In this document: piece after piece, positions 10,703-29,090 of the stretch
How positions within the stretch are numbered: position 1 is the stretch's first letter
Layout of the letters: the number at the start of each line of letters is the position of its first letter
DNA from: a bacterium CG_4_9_14_3_um_filter_65_15
GTDB lineage: Bacteria; Krumholzibacteriota; Krumholzibacteriia; LZORAL124-64-63
Assembly: GCA_002790835.1 (NCBI GenBank)
Contig: PFVX01000047.1
Location: 1 to 39,306, forward strand
Reading direction: 5' to 3'
Length of the DNA: 39,306 bases
The notes under the pieces: generated by a model
Seen by the model: the letters and a program-made list of their open reading frames with translations, nothing else
Databases searched by the model: none
What the model was told of the DNA's origin: nothing
Made by a program: the position numbers and the translations under genes

Positions 10703-11389
10703 ATGCCGCGAAACCACTTCAGCCCGGCCCTGTTCCGCTTCTTGCGCGACCTGAAGGCCAACAACGAACGCGATTGGTTCCAGGACAACAAGGATCGCTA
10801 TCTGGCCGATGTGCGCGACCCCGCCCTGTCCTTCGTCGTGGATTTCGGGGCGCACCTGGCCCGGATCAGCCCCCACTTCCTGGCCGACCCCCGGCCCAGC
10901 GGCGGCAGCCTGTTCCGCATCTACCGGGACATCCGCTTCAGCAAGGACAAGAGCCCCTACAAGACCGCCATCGGGCTGCATTTTCGCCACGAACTGGGCA
11001 AGTCCGCCCACACCCCGGGCTTCTATCTGCACCTGGAACCGCGCAATTGTTTCGTGGGTGTGGGGATCTGGCGACCGGACACTCCCACCCTGGAGAAACT
11101 GCGCCGAGCGGTGGCCGATGATCCCGCAGGTTGGCGGAAAATGACGGAGGCCCGGAAATTCGCCCAGTCGTTCACCATTTCCGGGGAAAAATTGAAGCGG
11201 CCGCCGCGCGGTTATCCCGCCGACCACCACCTGGTCGAGGTTCTCAGGCTCAAGGATTTCACGGCGCTGGCGCCCCTGGCCCAGGGGCAGGTCACCGGGC
11301 CCGGCTTCCTCGAGTATTTTGCGGAGCTTTGCCGCGAAGGCATGGCGTTGAACCGGTTCATTTGCCGGGCATTGTCCTTACCGGCCTGA
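10703..11389 (+). CDS. DUF2461 family protein
   Basis: The 228-residue protein matches the DUF2461 (TIGR02453) family: start FSPALFRFLRDLKANNERDW, the central FRIYRDIRFSKDKSPYKT block (about 69-86), and GFYLHLEP. The family is widespread and has no established function. The ATG at 10703 is chosen because family similarity begins there; longer in-frame starts lie inside the GH31 gene. A weak AAAGAAG precedes it. Its TGA stop forms the first unit of a 14-bp tandem repeat. It is probably the last gene of the GT2-GH31 transcript. Confidence 0.85.
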   Translation: MPRNHFSPALFRFLRDLKANNERDWFQDNKDRYLADVRDPALSFVVDFGAHLARISPHFLADPRPSGGSLFRIYRDIRFSKDKSPYKTAIGLHFRHELGKSAHTPGFYLHLEPRNCFVGVGIWRPDTPTLEKLRRAVADDPAGWRKMTEARKFAQSFTISGEKLKRPPRGYPADHHLVEVLRLKDFTALAPLAQGQVTGPGFLEYFAELCREGMALNRFICRALSLPA

Positions 11390-11428
11390 TCACGGCAACT
11401 TGATCACGGCAACTTGATCACCCCAACT
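11387..11428. repeat. Three 14-bp tandem repeats spanning two convergent stop codons
   Basis: TGATCACGGCAACT occurs at 11387-11400 and 11401-11414, and the variant TGATCACCCCAACT at 11415-11428. Each unit starts with the palindrome TGATCA. The first unit supplies the TGA stop of the DUF2461 gene, and the third supplies the stop (TCA, read on the minus strand) of the Yip1-like gene. Confidence 0.85.
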
Positions 11429-12113
11429 TGGCCAGAAGTGCAATCAGGGTAAACAGGGCAACCAGGGGCGCCAGGATCACCAGGGCGGACATCACCACGT
11501 TGCCCAGCCCCTTCCAGGCCGACGAGAAACCCTGCACCTCCGCCACCGTCTTGGCCAGGATCACCACGGACCAGATGCTCAGGGCCCCCTCCACGAGGGC
11601 GAAAAGGAAAATGAGGATACCGAGGCCGGGACTGGCGTCCAGGCGGGGTGTCACCGACCGGAACAGCTCATCCCCGAAGATGACGATCTCCAACATGGTC
11701 AGCCCCAGAACGGCCACCGCAGGCACCGCAGACCACGCGACGGCGGTGCGCAGGTGATCCCGGGTTGCCACCCCGTCCATCCAGCGGCCGGTGAACAGGA
11801 GCAGGTGGGAGGAGGCCCAGACGCTGATCAACCCGCTCAGGGGTCCACCGATCAGGGCCAGCAAAATGATGAGGAACAGGCTCATCTCATCGCCCGAATC
11901 ACGGCTGGAAGCTCGGCCCAAGGCTTCGGCGATTCCGGCCAGCATGACGAGGGGGATGACCATGTAGCCGGGATCATAATCCACCAGGCGGCGGATCGTG
12001 GCACGCGGCGCCAACCAGATGTCCTGCAGGGGCCGGAAAGGACCCGCATCGGGTTCCGGTGGCGGGGACTCGAAGGGGTGAAAACCGTCGTCGGGCAATT
12101 GCGTGTCGGACAT
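11418..12113 (-). CDS. Yip1-type integral membrane protein
   Basis: The 231-residue protein has an acidic, proline-rich N-terminus (about 1-35), a PLQDIWLAPRATIRRLVD segment typical of Yip1/YIPF-like bacterial proteins, and about five hydrophobic segments. Function is unknown; a membrane-embedded role is clear. The start at 12113 is chosen because AGGAGGG lies 4 nt upstream; longer frames starting at 12140, 12173 or 12176 lack such a site and run into the regulator gene. It follows the winged-helix regulator by 46 nt on the same strand, which suggests co-transcription. Confidence 0.75.
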   Translation of the reverse strand: MSDTQLPDDGFHPFESPPPEPDAGPFRPLQDIWLAPRATIRRLVDYDPGYMVIPLVMLAGIAEALGRASSRDSGDEMSLFLIILLALIGGPLSGLISVWASSHLLLFTGRWMDGVATRDHLRTAVAWSAVPAVAVLGLTMLEIVIFGDELFRSVTPRLDASPGLGILIFLFALVEGALSIWSVVILAKTVAEVQGFSSAWKGLGNVVMSALVILAPLVALFTLIALLAKLG

Positions 12114-23610: not shown

Positions 23611-25005
23611 ATGCGCCGAATGCTTCCCTTGTTGCTGCTGCCTGCCCTTTTGTGGTCCGGCTGCGGCGAACCCGTTCCCGGAGACAGCGCCACGAACCAA
23701 TCCGGCTTGAATCAACTGGTCCGGGCCGGCCTCGACGACACCTACGCCTACGATCTGTTGGGTGACCTTTGCACCACCGTCGGTCCGCGGCTCGCGGGCT
23801 CTCCGGGCTACGAACGCGCCGTCGTTTGGGCTCAGGAGGCCATGCGCCGGGCAGGCTGCGACAGCGTGTGGGTTGAGCCCGTCACCGTGCCCCACTGGAC
23901 CCGTGGCCGGGAATGGGGCCGCGTGTTGGGCCCGGTGCCATTCGACCTGGACCTGTGCGCCCTGGGCCTGAGCGACGGCACCGGCGACGGCGAGGTGGAG
24001 GCCGAGATCCTGGCCGTGCGCGATTTCGACGAACTGGAACGGCGGGCAGACGAAGCCGCCGGGAAAATCGTTCTCTTCAACCCACCCTGGGAAGGCTACG
24101 GCAAGACCGTCCGCTACCGCGTGGGCGGAGCCAGCGCCGCGGCCCGCCACGGGGCGGTGGCGTGCCTGATCTGCTCGGTCACCGACCGCAGCCTGGGCGC
24201 GCCCCACACCGGCATGATGCGCTACGCCGACGACGCCCCCCGCATCCCCATCGCCGCGGTCACCGTGGAGAACGCCGACCGCCTGTTCCGCATGGCCGGC
24301 AGGGGCATGAACCCCCGCGTGCGGTTGCACCTGGAGGCGGCCAACCACGAAGACGTCACCAACTTCAACGTCATCGGCGAAATTCGCGGCAGCGAGGCGC
24401 CCGAAGAGATCATCCTGGTCGCCGGCCACCTTGATTCCTGGGACGTGGGAACCGGCGCCAGCGACGACGGCACGGGCGTGACCCTGGCCTTGGCCGCGGC
24501 CCGTCTCCAGTTGCAACAAGACCGGCGCCCGCGCCGTACCATCCGGGTTGTGTTCTACGCCTGCGAGGAAATGGGCGGATTTGGCGGCCGCGCCTATCTC
24601 GAAGCCCATCGGCAGGAATTGGACCGGCACGTTCTCGTGATGGAGAGCGACGGGGGCGGTTTTGCGCCTCGGGGATTCAGCGTCCAGGCCGACAGCACCG
24701 TCGTCGCCCGGGTGGCCGAATTGGCCGCGCCCCTGGCCCGGATCGCGCCGGACCACTGGTCGGTCGGACCGGGCGGATCCGGGGTCGATGTTGGCCCCCT
24801 CGCCGCCGCAGGCGTCCCCGGAATCGGCCACCACGTGGACGGGTCCGGTTATTTCGCCCTTCATCACAGCCGAGCCGACACCTATGACAAGGTCGACCCC
24901 GACGAGATGGCACGGAATACCGCGGCCATCGCCGGTCTGATCTACTCCGTCGACCATCTTCCCGAACGCTTGCTGCCGCCCAGGGCAGCCGGAGGAAACC
25001 CATGA
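23611..25005 (+). CDS. M28 family aminopeptidase-like lipoprotein
   Basis: The 464-residue precursor has a signal peptide ending in the lipobox WSGC (Cys18), so it should be anchored in an envelope membrane. The M28 zinc ligands are present: H273 in GHLDSWD, D285 or D286 in GASDDGTG, E319/E320 in ACEEMGG, D347 in MESDGGG and H418/H419 in LHHSRADTYDKV. A PA-like insert (about 130-240) is typical of glutamate carboxypeptidase-like M28 enzymes. It probably removes amino acids from extracellular or periplasmic peptides. Its stop overlaps the ATG of the tricorn-like gene (ATGA), so the two are coupled. The opposite strand also carries a long frame, rejected because every M28 motif is on this strand. 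Confidence 0.9.
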   Translation: MRRMLPLLLLPALLWSGCGEPVPGDSATNQSGLNQLVRAGLDDTYAYDLLGDLCTTVGPRLAGSPGYERAVVWAQEAMRRAGCDSVWVEPVTVPHWTRGREWGRVLGPVPFDLDLCALGLSDGTGDGEVEAEILAVRDFDELERRADEAAGKIVLFNPPWEGYGKTVRYRVGGASAAARHGAVACLICSVTDRSLGAPHTGMMRYADDAPRIPIAAVTVENADRLFRMAGRGMNPRVRLHLEAANHEDVTNFNVIGEIRGSEAPEEIILVAGHLDSWDVGTGASDDGTGVTLALAAARLQLQQDRRPRRTIRVVFYACEEMGGFGGRAYLEAHRQELDRHVLVMESDGGGFAPRGFSVQADSTVVARVAELAAPLARIAPDHWSVGPGGSGVDVGPLAAAGVPGIGHHVDGSGYFALHHSRADTYDKVDPDEMARNTAAIAGLIYSVDHLPERLLPPRAAGGNP

Positions 25006-28000
25006 AAATGCGTCTGCTGATCCTGACCCTCGGCCTCTGCGCGATGGCCGCACCCCTGGCGACCCTTGCCGCCGATCCCGTCCTCGAGGCCCCCGACCAC
25101 ATGGACATGCGTCTGTTGCGCAACCCGGACATCCACGGGGCCAGGATCGTCTTCACCTACGCCGGCAATCTGTGGACCGTCAGCAGCACCGGCGGCAGGG
25201 CAACGCGACTGACCAGCAGCGAAGGTTTCCAGAGCCAGCCGAAGTTCAGCCCGGACGGCAAATCCATCGCCTTTTCCGGCAATTACGACGGCAACAACGA
25301 CGTCTACCTCATTCCCACCGAGGGCGGCGCCCCCCGGCGCCTGACCTACCACCCCGGCTGGGACCGGGTCATCGACTGGCAGCCCGACGGCAAGAGCATC
25401 CGCTTCCAGTCTCCGCGCCAGAGCAACACGGGGCGGGATCTGCAGCTATTCACCGTCGAGGTCGGTGGCGGCTTGCCGCGATTTCTTCCGTTGCCCACCG
25501 CCGGCCTGTCCAGCTACAACGCCGACGGCACCCGCATCGCCTACAACCGCATCACCCGCGAAAACCGTACCTGGAAGCGTTACAAGGGCGGCATGGCCCA
25601 GGACATCTGGCTCTTCGACTTCAAGCAGGGCAAATCCACCCGCCTGACCGACTGGGAAGGCAGCGACCACTTCCCCATGTGGCAGGGCGACACGGTGTAC
25701 TTCACCAGCGACCGCGGCGGCAACCTGCAGATCTGGGCCCACGACATGAAGACCGGCCAGGATCGCCAGATCACCCATCACGACGAATACGACGTGAAGT
25801 ACCCGAGCCAGGGCCCCGGCGCCATCGTCTACGAGAACGGCGGTTGGTTGTGGGTACTTGACCTCAAGACCGAGAAGAGCACGCGGCTGAAGATCGCCCT
25901 GTCCAGCGACAACACCGCTTCCCGCCCGCAGCTCAAGTCGGTCGGCGAGCTCATTGAGAGCGCAGGCATCGGGCCGGACGCCAAGCGGGCCGTCTTCACG
26001 GCCCGCGGCGAGCTGTTCACCGTGCCCGCGGAAAAGGGCCCGGTGCGCAACCTCACCCAGACCCCCGGCGTCCGGGAACGCGCCGCCGAGTGGTCGCCCG
26101 ACGGCAAATGGATCGCCTATCTGAGCGACGCGCAGCGGGCGAAGAATCCCCAATCCGGCTACGAGGTCGCCATCCGGCCCGCCGACGGTCTGGGCGAGGA
26201 TAAAATGCTGACCCACAAGGACTTCGCCTGGCCCCAGGGGTTGGCGTGGTCCCCCGACAGCAAGCACCTGTTGTTGAGCGATGCGGCCATGAACCTGTGG
26301 CTGATCGACGCCGAAGACGGCAAGATCAAGAAGATCGATCAGAGCGTCGCGAACGAAATCAACGATTTCGCCTGGAGCCCCGGTTCGGACTGGGTCGTCT
26401 ATGCCGGCACCGAAGCCAACAACTTCGGATCGATCTTCCTGTACAGCCTGGACACCGGAAAGGTCACCCGCGTGACCTCCGATTTCACCAACGATTCCCA
26501 GCCTTGTTTCGACGACAAGGGGGACTTCCTGTTCTTCGCTTCTTCCCGCAACTTCAACCCCACCCTGGGTGGGTTCGACCTCAAGCCCATCTGGGACAAT
26601 ATGGACGGAATTTACGTCGTGCCTCTGCGGAACGATGTGGACCACCCCTTCCCTCCCGAGAGTGACGAAGTGGCCGTGAAGGGCGACGATGACAAGGACG
26701 AGGACGCCGACGCCGACAAGAAGGACGACAAGAAGGACGACGAGAAGAAGGAAGAGGAGGACAAGACGATCGTCATCGACCTCGACGGTCTGGCCTCCCG
26801 CACCATCGCCCTGGATGTTCCGCCCAGCAACTACCGGAGCTTGAGCTTCGCGGGCGACAATCTCTTCTTCCTCGACCGGCCCTTCACCCCCGGCGGGGGC
26901 CGCGGCAACCAGTTGGCCACCACCAGCCTCAAGCTCTTCGACATGAAGGAGCGCGAGGTCAAGACGGTGCTGGACAAGTGCGACGGCTACGACCTCGCCG
27001 ACGGCGGCAAGAAGATCTTTTACCGGTCGGGTAAGCAGTACGGCATCATCGACGCCAAGGCCGACCAGAAACCGTCGGACGAGCCCCTGCGCACGGCGGA
27101 GATGAAGACCCTGGTCGATCCGCGCGCCGAATGGCAGGAGATGTTCCGCGACGCCTGGCGCCAGGAGAAGGACTTCTTCTACGATCCCGGCATGCACGGC
27201 GTGGACTGGGACCACATGTACGAGCGCTATGGCCAGCTCGTGCCCTACGTCGGCCACGGCGCCGATTTCTCCTACCTGCTGGGCGAGCTGATCGGCGAAC
27301 TCTGCAGCTCCCACAGCTACGTAAGGGGCGGCGACATGCCGCACCCCGAGCGCATCGGCACCGGCCTGCTGGGCTGCGATTTCACCCTGGACCGGGAGAA
27401 CGGACTCTACCGTTTCGCCCGCGTCTTCACCGACCGGGACTGGAACGGCGGCACCGATCTGCCGTTGAACCAGCCGGGCAGCCGGGCCGAACCCGACGAG
27501 TACCTGCTCGCCGTGGACGGAATCGAACTCAAGGCCCCCGTCAACCCGTACAGCCTGCTGGTGGACAAGGTGGGACGCGAGGTCGTGCTGAAGGTCGGCC
27601 CCAATCCCGACGGCAAGGACAGCCGGGAGATCAAGGTCCTGCCCGTCTCCAACGAGTACAACATCCGCTACGAGGCCTGGGTGCAGCAGAACCGGCGCCG
27701 CGTGGACGAACTGTCCGGGGGCGGAATCGGCTACTTGCACATGCCCAACACCGCGGTGGGCGGGCAGCAGGGCTTCGCCAAGGGCTACTATCCCAACCTG
27801 CGCAAGGACGGCCTGATCATCGATGAACGCTTCAACGGGGGCGGGTTCATTCCCGACTTCTTCATGAACATCCTGCGCCAGAAGCTGGCCAACCTGTGGA
27901 AGCCCCGCTACGGCCAGGATTGGCGCACCCCCGGCACGGCCTTCGTCGGGCACATGGCCATGATCAGCAACGGGTACGCCGGCAGCGGCGGCGACGCCCT

Positions 28001-28325
28001 GCCCTACTACTTCAAGTACTACGACCTGGGCCCGGTGATCGGCAAGCGCACCTGGGGCGGATTGGTGGGCATCTCCCGCGGCCTGCTCCTGATGGACGGC
28101 GGCGGGGTGACCTTCCCCGAGTTCGGCATATTCAACACCCAGGGCAAGTGGGACGTCGAGAACCACGGCGTGGATCCGGACATCGATCTGGACAACCTGC
28201 CCGAAGACCTGATGGCCGGCCGGGATCCCCAGCTGGAAAAGGCGGTCTCGGTCCTGCTGGAGAAGATCAAGTCGGACCCCGTGAGCGTTCCGACCATCAA
28301 ATCCTTCCCCCGCGACAAGGACTGA
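25002..28325 (+). CDS. Secreted tricorn-like S41 protease
   Basis: The 1107-residue precursor has a signal peptide (about 1-24). The N-terminal two-thirds are WD40/TolB-like beta-propeller repeats (SPDGKSIAFSGNYDG, QPDGKSIRF, SPDGKWIAYLSD and others). At about 562-588 there is a Lys/Asp/Glu-only linker of the DDDKDEDADADKK type. The C-terminus has the tricorn core, a PDZ-like part and the S41 fold: H771 in SSHSY and the nucleophile S995 in NGYAGSGGD, followed by GKRTWGG. Tricorn homologues degrade peptides to short products, which the coupled M28 peptidase could trim. Export implies a periplasmic or surface role, unlike archaeal cytosolic tricorn. The gene ends 19 nt before a disrupted terminator. 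Confidence 0.92.
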   Translation: MKMRLLILTLGLCAMAAPLATLAADPVLEAPDHMDMRLLRNPDIHGARIVFTYAGNLWTVSSTGGRATRLTSSEGFQSQPKFSPDGKSIAFSGNYDGNNDVYLIPTEGGAPRRLTYHPGWDRVIDWQPDGKSIRFQSPRQSNTGRDLQLFTVEVGGGLPRFLPLPTAGLSSYNADGTRIAYNRITRENRTWKRYKGGMAQDIWLFDFKQGKSTRLTDWEGSDHFPMWQGDTVYFTSDRGGNLQIWAHDMKTGQDRQITHHDEYDVKYPSQGPGAIVYENGGWLWVLDLKTEKSTRLKIALSSDNTASRPQLKSVGELIESAGIGPDAKRAVFTARGELFTVPAEKGPVRNLTQTPGVRERAAEWSPDGKWIAYLSDAQRAKNPQSGYEVAIRPADGLGEDKMLTHKDFAWPQGLAWSPDSKHLLLSDAAMNLWLIDAEDGKIKKIDQSVANEINDFAWSPGSDWVVYAGTEANNFGSIFLYSLDTGKVTRVTSDFTNDSQPCFDDKGDFLFFASSRNFNPTLGGFDLKPIWDNMDGIYVVPLRNDVDHPFPPESDEVAVKGDDDKDEDADADKKDDKKDDEKKEEEDKTIVIDLDGLASRTIALDVPPSNYRSLSFAGDNLFFLDRPFTPGGGRGNQLATTSLKLFDMKEREVKTVLDKCDGYDLADGGKKIFYRSGKQYGIIDAKADQKPSDEPLRTAEMKTLVDPRAEWQEMFRDAWRQEKDFFYDPGMHGVDWDHMYERYGQLVPYVGHGADFSYLLGELIGELCSSHSYVRGGDMPHPERIGTGLLGCDFTLDRENGLYRFARVFTDRDWNGGTDLPLNQPGSRAEPDEYLLAVDGIELKAPVNPYSLLVDKVGREVVLKVGPNPDGKDSREIKVLPVSNEYNIRYEAWVQQNRRRVDELSGGGIGYLHMPNTAVGGQQGFAKGYYPNLRKDGLIIDERFNGGGFIPDFFMNILRQKLANLWKPRYGQDWRTPGTAFVGHMAMISNGYAGSGGDALPYYFKYYDLGPVIGKRTWGGLVGISRGLLLMDGGGVTFPEFGIFNTQGKWDVENHGVDPDIDLDNLPEDLMAGRDPQLEKAVSVLLEKIKSDPVSVPTIKSFPRDKD

Positions 28326-28344
28326 GATCCGGTCCGCTGACCTG

Positions 28345-28556
28345 CGGCGCCGTCCTTAGCCCGGATTATTCATGAAGGAACGTAGCGAGGATGAGGGAAA
28401 AGACTGTCAGACCAAGGGCTCGCAAGGAGTTGCGAGGAAGGCGTACCCTGTGCGGTACGTTGACCGAGCAAATCCGAGAACGCTTGGTCTGACAGGCTTT
28501 TCACCATCCGCAGTAGGTCATTCATGAATAATCCGGGTTAGGGGCGGCGCCGTTTT
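28345..28556 (+). terminator. Tricorn-gene terminator split by an inserted element
   Basis: CGGCGCCGTCC (28345-28355) and GGGCGGCGCCG (28542-28552) form an 11-bp stem with one G-U pair, and TTTTC follows at 28553. The arms are now 186 nt apart. Removing the element and one TTAG copy leaves a compact terminator with a TTAG tetraloop, so the insertion went into the loop. Confidence 0.7.
28360..28537. mobile_element. 178-bp MITE-like element with 17-bp terminal inverted repeats
   Basis: Perfect 17-bp terminal inverted repeats (CCCGGATTATTCATGAA at 28360-28376; its reverse complement at 28521-28537) are flanked by a 4-bp direct repeat TTAG (28356-28359 and 28538-28541), the expected target duplication. 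Inside, 28398-28416 and 28483-28501 form a second 19-bp inverted pair with one mismatch, and two hairpins lie between them (CTCGCAA-GGAG-TTGCGAG at 28419-28436; CGTACC-CTGTGC-GGTACG at 28442-28459). No gene fits inside, so it would be non-autonomous. The mobilising transposase is not in view; a family producing TTAN duplications is one to test. Confidence 0.8.
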
Positions 28557-28568
28557 CATGGAGGCGTC

Positions 28569-29090
28569 ATGCCCAGCAACGTTGAGATCAAGGCCCGCCT
28601 GACCGATACCGAAGCCGTCGCCGCTCGGGCCCGCGAGCTGGCGACCGAACCCGAAACCGTCATCATCCAGCGCGACACGTTTTTCGTTTGCCCCGCAGGC
28701 CGGCTCAAGCTGCGGGAATTCGGCGACGGCACCGGCGAGTTGATCCACTACCACCGGCCCGACCAGGCCGGGCCCAAAGTCTCCCGCTACCATCTTGCCC
28801 CCGTGGCCCAGGCCGCACCCCTGCTGGCGACCCTGCAGGCCGCCCTGCCGGTCCTGGGAGTGGTCGCCAAGACCCGTCGCCTGCTGATGTGCGGACGCAC
28901 GCGCATCCACCTGGACGAGGTCGAAGGCCTGGGATCTTTCCTGGAACTGGAAGTGGTTCTCGCAGAGGGAGAATCGGTGGCCGACGGAGAACGGGAAGCC
29001 CACCGAATGCTGGCCGAGCTGGGGATCCCAGCCGAAGACCTGGTCGAAGGCGCCTACCTGGATCTGATCGTGGGCCGCGCACAACCCTGA
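28569..29090 (+). CDS. CYTH domain protein (CyaB/thiamine-triphosphatase-like)
   Basis: The 173-residue protein is a single CYTH domain: the N-terminal NVEIKAR (E6, K8) is a reduced form of the ExExK signature, followed by QRDTFF, LKLREF, HYHRPD, VVAKTRRLL and FLELEVVL. CYTH proteins form an eight-stranded tunnel that binds triphosphates; members include class IV adenylate cyclases, thiamine triphosphatases and inorganic triphosphatases. Which activity applies here is not readable. The ATG follows GGAGG at 4 nt. It lies just downstream of the MITE, so its transcription may depend on read-through or on sequences in the element. It is convergent with the TPR gene, 12 nt away. Confidence 0.85.
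   Translation: MPSNVEIKARLTDTEAVAARARELATEPETVIIQRDTFFVCPAGRLKLREFGDGTGELIHYHRPDQAGPKVSRYHLAPVAQAAPLLATLQAALPVLGVVAKTRRLLMCGRTRIHLDEVEGLGSFLELEVVLAEGESVADGEREAHRMLAELGIPAEDLVEGAYLDLIVGRAQP

Follow-up and report, generated by a model that had tools for sequence, protein, structure and literature searches.

We found that a putative intrinsic terminator between a tricorn-type protease gene and a CYTH-domain gene, identified by sequence and homology, carries a 178-bp MITE in its loop. The genes lie in a window of 39,306 nucleotides, which is the whole stretch of DNA analysed here; judging from named relatives, its genome belongs with Candidatus Krumholzibacteriia. According to our reading, which we consider correct with a probability of about 0.87, a non-autonomous MITE was moved in trans by an IS1380-family transposase and landed at a YTAR target (C/T-T-A-A/G) in the terminator loop, and the insertion was likely near-neutral. 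The pattern in the window exceeds chance, as full-length copies exist in relatives, the copies carry YTAR duplications, and two empty sites were found.

A preliminary description of this DNA had reported a 178-bp element with perfect 17-bp terminal repeats, bordered on both sides by TTAG, and its coordinates proved to be exact (Table 1). As it also stated, once the element is removed together with one TTAG, what remains is a stem of 11 bp with a TTAG loop, followed by TTTT. The two terminator arms (28345-28355 and 28542-28552) form 11 pairs including one G-U, with a possible outer G-U pair, and TTTT at 28553-28556 lies directly 3' of the right arm.

Table 1. Features of the element and of the interrupted terminator in the window
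Feature	Position	Strand	Basis
Tricorn-type protease gene, upstream of the terminator	25002..28325	+	Pfam Tricorn_C1, PDZ_Tricorn, Peptidase_S41
Interrupted putative terminator, left arm CGGCGCCGTCC	28345..28355	+	Sequence; homology of the arm to those of L080 and L097
Left target-site duplication TTAG, loop of the terminator before the insertion	28356..28359	+	Sequence; YTAR duplications at other copies
IS1380-type MITE, 178 bp, without a transposase gene, one long hairpin	28360..28537	+	Copies in relatives, fold, covariation, model match
Left terminal inverted repeat CCCGGATTATTCATGAA	28360..28376	+	Sequence; matches the IS1380-family element end at L098 and ISSp1
Right terminal inverted repeat	28521..28537	-	Exact reverse complement of the left repeat, 17 bp
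Inner inverted repeat, left arm, fast-changing yet covarying	28397..28421	+	Sequence, covariation
Conserved core: tandem G-A internal loops and CGTACC...GGTACG tip hairpin	28422..28477	+	Alignment of copies
Inner inverted repeat, right arm	28478..28502	+	Sequence, covariation
Right target-site duplication TTAG	28538..28541	+	Sequence
Terminator right arm GGGCGGCGCCG and TTTT tract	28542..28556	+	Sequence; homology with L080 and L097
CYTH-domain gene, downstream, same strand as the tricorn gene	28569..29090	+	Pfam CYTH

The element in the window scored 182.8 bits against a covariance model of the MITE family. No Rfam match (E up to 1) was obtained between 28200 and 28700, and no sigma-70-type promoter match was found in the element. 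Two other repeats were observed in the window: a short tandem repeat of the GACGACGACAAGAAG type at 26709-26752, within the tricorn gene, and three tandem copies of the 14-bp TGATCACGGCAACT at 11387-11430.

The interrupted structure has the traits of an intrinsic terminator, namely a GC-rich stem, a short loop, and a T tract located 3' of a gene, and its stem and position are conserved in two congeners. A consensus terminator scanner made no call at the window site, because the T run is short (four T), nor at the empty site in L080; the same scanner called the homologous empty site in L097. In both of these species, which belong to the same genus, the tricorn/CYTH junction is uninterrupted, and a compact terminator is present without the element. 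The empty terminator reads CGGCGCCGCTCC-CTTG-GGGGCGGCGCCGTTCTCG in L080 (JANTFX010000035.1; at the location of L043 in G002) and CGGCGCCGTTCC-TCCG-GGGGCGGCGCCGTTTTTC in L097 (JALUJS010000477.1; matching G003). When the three terminators are aligned, TTAG of the window falls at the loop position. The empty orthologous sites indicate that the terminator is older and that the element was inserted later, in the lineage of the window. The preliminary description had proposed an insertion into a pre-existing terminator loop and had named as support an empty site with a compact terminator in a relative; such a site is present in both congeners. The terminator-loop insertion itself was seen in one genome only.

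The element belongs to a family with dozens of copies in related Krumholzibacteriia genomes, and the length of complete copies is almost always 175-180 bp. According to sequence searches, from which all whole-genome copy counts were taken, copies are present in 11 genomes among 58 relatives, and the covariance model (41 copies) matched in 12 of 80 genomes of the class. Many copies of about 178 bp were found in G002, G003, G024, and G030, and single or few copies in the others. Some copies are 98-100% identical within one genome, which points to recent movement there. A single copy in the genome had been held to speak against the original interpretation; the window's own genome (G000) contains a second full-length copy, which is diverged (C59), as well as an 82-bp internal-deletion derivative (L137; C12:107042-107123) that keeps both ends and is flanked by CTAG and TTAG. 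The family is thus a MITE family by its features: it is short, non-coding, and multicopy, with terminal inverted repeats, target duplications, and an empty site.

Contigs ending inside or at a copy were observed in G024 (C10, C11, C37, C73, C166, and C393), G003 (C175 and C400), and G002 (C33). As many contigs end at copies, the element probably breaks short-read assemblies, and the true copy numbers are probably higher. In two cases the flank beyond YTAR resembles the end of a second copy (CATGAAAAATCCGGG followed by TTAG in the left flank of L106, and CCCGAATTATTCATC preceded by TTAA in the right flank of L113); judging from these flanks, it looks as if copies may insert side by side at a shared target.

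We assigned the MITE to the IS1380 family because its ends and its target rule match those of an IS1380 element end and of ISSp1. Contig C451 of G003, a genome of the same genus, carries an IS1380-family transposase gene (NCBIfam NF033539, 227.8 bits, cut-off 180; PF13701) adjoining the end TTCATGAATAATGCGGG, which is followed by TTAA; this copy is cut by the contig end. The same end is found on MITE copies of G003, for example L104. The IS1380-family element end at L098 matches the MITE terminal repeat at 16 of 17 positions, and TTAA follows it. In the window's own genome, C91 contains a degraded relative of the G003 insertion sequence, which begins with CACGGATCATTCAAGAA right after TTAG. 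We also read directly the ends of ISSp1, a named IS1380 element from a Sphingobium plasmid, which begins with CCCGCCTTATTCAC after CTAG and ends with GTGAATAAGAGAGG before CTAG.

No complete autonomous IS1380 copy with both matching ends was found, as the copy in G003 is cut and that in the window's own genome is degraded, and the similarity between the MITE and the G003 insertion sequence is visible in the terminal repeat only. The element has the terminal repeat type and the YTAR duplication of the family and lacks a PF13701/NF033539 gene of its own; it is filed here as a MITE dependent on the IS1380 family and not as an IS1380 insertion sequence. The first guess for its partner was the IS5 family, which also uses YTAR targets; the matching ends were instead found on IS1380 transposase genes. 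The IS1380 copies C65 and C67 (L158 and L159) of the window's own genome were set aside as partners, having the different end CCCACCTTATTCACGGT. The transposase genes of C65 and C67, with this end, possibly represent a second IS1380 subgroup.

The target rule was examined at 35 copies with readable flanks, each retained on the condition that YTAR was present in one or both flanks, and exact 4-bp duplications were found in 28 of them (CTAG 12, TTAA 8, TTAG 5, and CTAA 3). All 28 are YTAR, and this agrees with the unfiltered copy list, in which few copies deviated (for example L016, with TTCA). YTAR is scarce in this GC-rich DNA, with 21 occurrences in the whole window.

The further claim of the preliminary description, that the insertion targeted a hairpin loop, did not hold, because loop placement is at background level over the 35 sites and the common rule is YTAR. 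Active targeting of hairpin loops or terminators by the family, as in some IS200/IS605 and IS110 elements and group IIC introns, would fit the window copy, whose position is precisely the loop closed by an 11-12 bp stem; none of 577 control YTAR sites has a flush stem that long. However, among the reconstructed empty sites (n = 35), the number of pairs flush with the duplication is 12 for the window copy, 4 for the next best, and none for 23 sites. A flush stem of at least 6 is thus confined to the window copy (1 of 35, and 0 of the 34 other sites); among the controls, a flush stem of at least 7 occurs in three, one of them being a MITE edge. Furthermore, 7 of 35 sites lie in predicted MFE hairpin loops versus 74 of 310 GC-matched control YTAR sites (Fisher p = 0.68), and the duplications and ends are of the DDE cut-and-paste type. 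Loop or terminator targeting was rejected by these two measures on 35 sites from several genomes, and we consider it highly improbable. The YTAR rule alone suffices for the insertion sites, and the window copy, itself inserted at YTAR, lies in a loop by coincidence. TAR stop codons of open frames of at least 80 codons on one strand are the site of 19 of 32 copies, versus 213 of 602 control YTAR sites (35%; p = 0.008), a rough comparison in which the controls are partly redundant and the open frames are not proven genes. Copies at stop-codon sites include L024, L029, L033, L034, L038, and L040. The insertion duplicates the stop codon, and therefore the end of the frame stays intact. Surviving insertions sit where little harm is done, and the terminator loop is another harmless place.

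Folding of 28335-28570 by a thermodynamic, not co-transcriptional, model gave -141.5 kcal/mol (z = -13.6), and in the predicted structure the terminator arms close a hairpin that runs on through the TTAG/TTAG segment into the element. The nested arms had been supposed to remain able to meet, in agreement with the predicted probabilities of the eleven terminator pairs, which are 0.994-1.0 when the element is present and no lower than 0.988 when it is removed. The hairpin form of the element should leave the terminator arms able to pair. Since the predicted stem still forms, read-through into the CYTH gene, whose alteration the preliminary description had thought possible, need not change, and the fold speaks for little difference. 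The simplest prediction is that termination is retained, with a long double-stranded stem 5' of the transcript 3' end. The insertion might instead be regulatory, by making termination weaker or stronger or by introducing an RNase III-type cut site between the tricorn and CYTH genes, and have been kept for that. The predicted transcript, one very long hairpin of the above stability, would suit such a role, and according to published reports other bacterial MITEs (NEMIS and ERIC) influence how mRNA is processed or how stable it is (PMC2229807). On the other hand, the stem and the T tract are unaltered by the insertion, and its presence in one genome only gives no sign of long-term retention. We regard a regulatory role as unlikely.

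The hairpin of the element is conserved in the family. In the alignment of 41 copies, 97.4% of the cells are paired. Changes on both sides were found in 44 of 68 pairs versus 22.3 expected from shuffles, and the covariation score of 0.356 compares with 0.122 in shuffles (0 of 500 reach it) and at most 0.075 in slid structures; the shuffles are uncontrolled for relatedness, whereas the slid control accounts for it. The mid-stem (alignment columns 38-62) shares hardly any sequence between lineages, yet its arms stay complementary. Single positions show many pair types (for example, GC, CG, UA, and AU at 45-139), which indicates that double changes occurred independently several times. Three internal loops are preserved in 37-39 of 41 copies: two symmetrical ones of the GA/GA type (columns 75-76/107-108 and 79-80/103-104) and one of the GA/GCA type (columns 28-29/154-156). 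We also observed that the fifth base of the terminal repeats changes in step at both ends (CCCGG, CCCGC, and CCCGA). The covarying pairs together with the conserved tandem G-A loops indicate that the hairpin is strongly maintained.

Such covariation might have arisen because one arm of the palindrome was copied from the other (quasi-palindrome correction), rather than by selection on the folded form. The mid-stem arms, which change completely between lineages and stay near-perfect Watson-Crick complements, are consistent with copying, as are the distinct G-U and A-C mismatch events (33 versus 20), which show no significant excess of G-U of the kind that would point to RNA-strand-specific selection (p = 0.10). 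However, arm-to-arm copying should erase the fixed, non-complementary internal loops. These loops are kept, and at least part of the structure therefore appears, from the alignment, to be under selection. Copying as the source of the covariation is a real possibility that we nevertheless find doubtful. We tentatively suggest, at somewhat less than even odds, that the family represents mobile nucleic acid whose folded structure is under selection, either in RNA form or as extruded DNA, and which might serve, for instance, as a substrate of a host or transposition protein; the stem sequence would then be free to change while paired, with the tandem G-A loops fixed and the tip conserved.

Our preferred reading, a MITE moved by an IS1380-family transposase into a YTAR target, implies the following course of events. 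The IS1380-family DDE transposase would recognise the CCCGGATTATTCATGAA ends and act in trans on the MITE, with insertion at YTAR and duplication of the four bases. In the lineage of the window, the tricorn/CYTH terminator loop would have read TTAG and thus been a legal target, and the MITE would have landed in this loop, the exact centre of the terminator palindrome. As a near-complete hairpin was inserted at the palindrome centre, the transcript could form a single uninterrupted hairpin that runs up to the original U tract, and termination at this site probably persists. The insertion would then likely be close to neutral, which would help to explain its persistence.

The terminal repeat type CCCGSMTTATTCAY and the 4-bp YTAR duplication are common to the MITE and to IS1380 insertion sequences such as ISSp1; the two differ in that the MITE is 178 bp long without a transposase gene, whereas ISSp1 is about 1.65 kb. 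Eukaryotic piggyBac, a distant relative of IS1380, uses TTAA targets. Terminators or palindromes are sought by group IIC introns, by IS elements in REP/BIME palindromes, and by Tn7 downstream of glmS. Similarly, the insertion in the window lies inside a terminator hairpin, but loop placement is not a property of its MITE family; we take the insertion in the terminator loop to be a tidy one-off event and no new mechanism. With its empty orthologous site, it illustrates clearly how a palindromic transposon can come to lie in the middle of a terminator palindrome whose arms are still able to pair, and such a landing is possible without any hairpin targeting. In open-licence papers, we found no direct precedent for IS1380-derived MITEs or for MITEs in terminators. 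Bacterial MITEs are typically 100-200 bp long and give long stem-loop transcripts (PMC2229807), and the best-known ones have a link to IS630, Correia and RUP being tied to IS630-type transposases (PMC2817692). The family in the window resembles Correia/NEMIS, RUP, and ERIC in its size (about 100-200 bp), terminal repeats, target duplication, and predicted one-stem-loop transcript (PMC2229807). The covariation and the conserved tandem G-A loops make it testable why bacterial MITEs are long hairpins. Unlike Correia and RUP, which have an IS630-type link (PMC2817692), the MITE in the window is linked to IS1380 and YTAR. The family thus adds an IS1380-linked member to the bacterial MITEs, in a bacterial group with little described mobile DNA.
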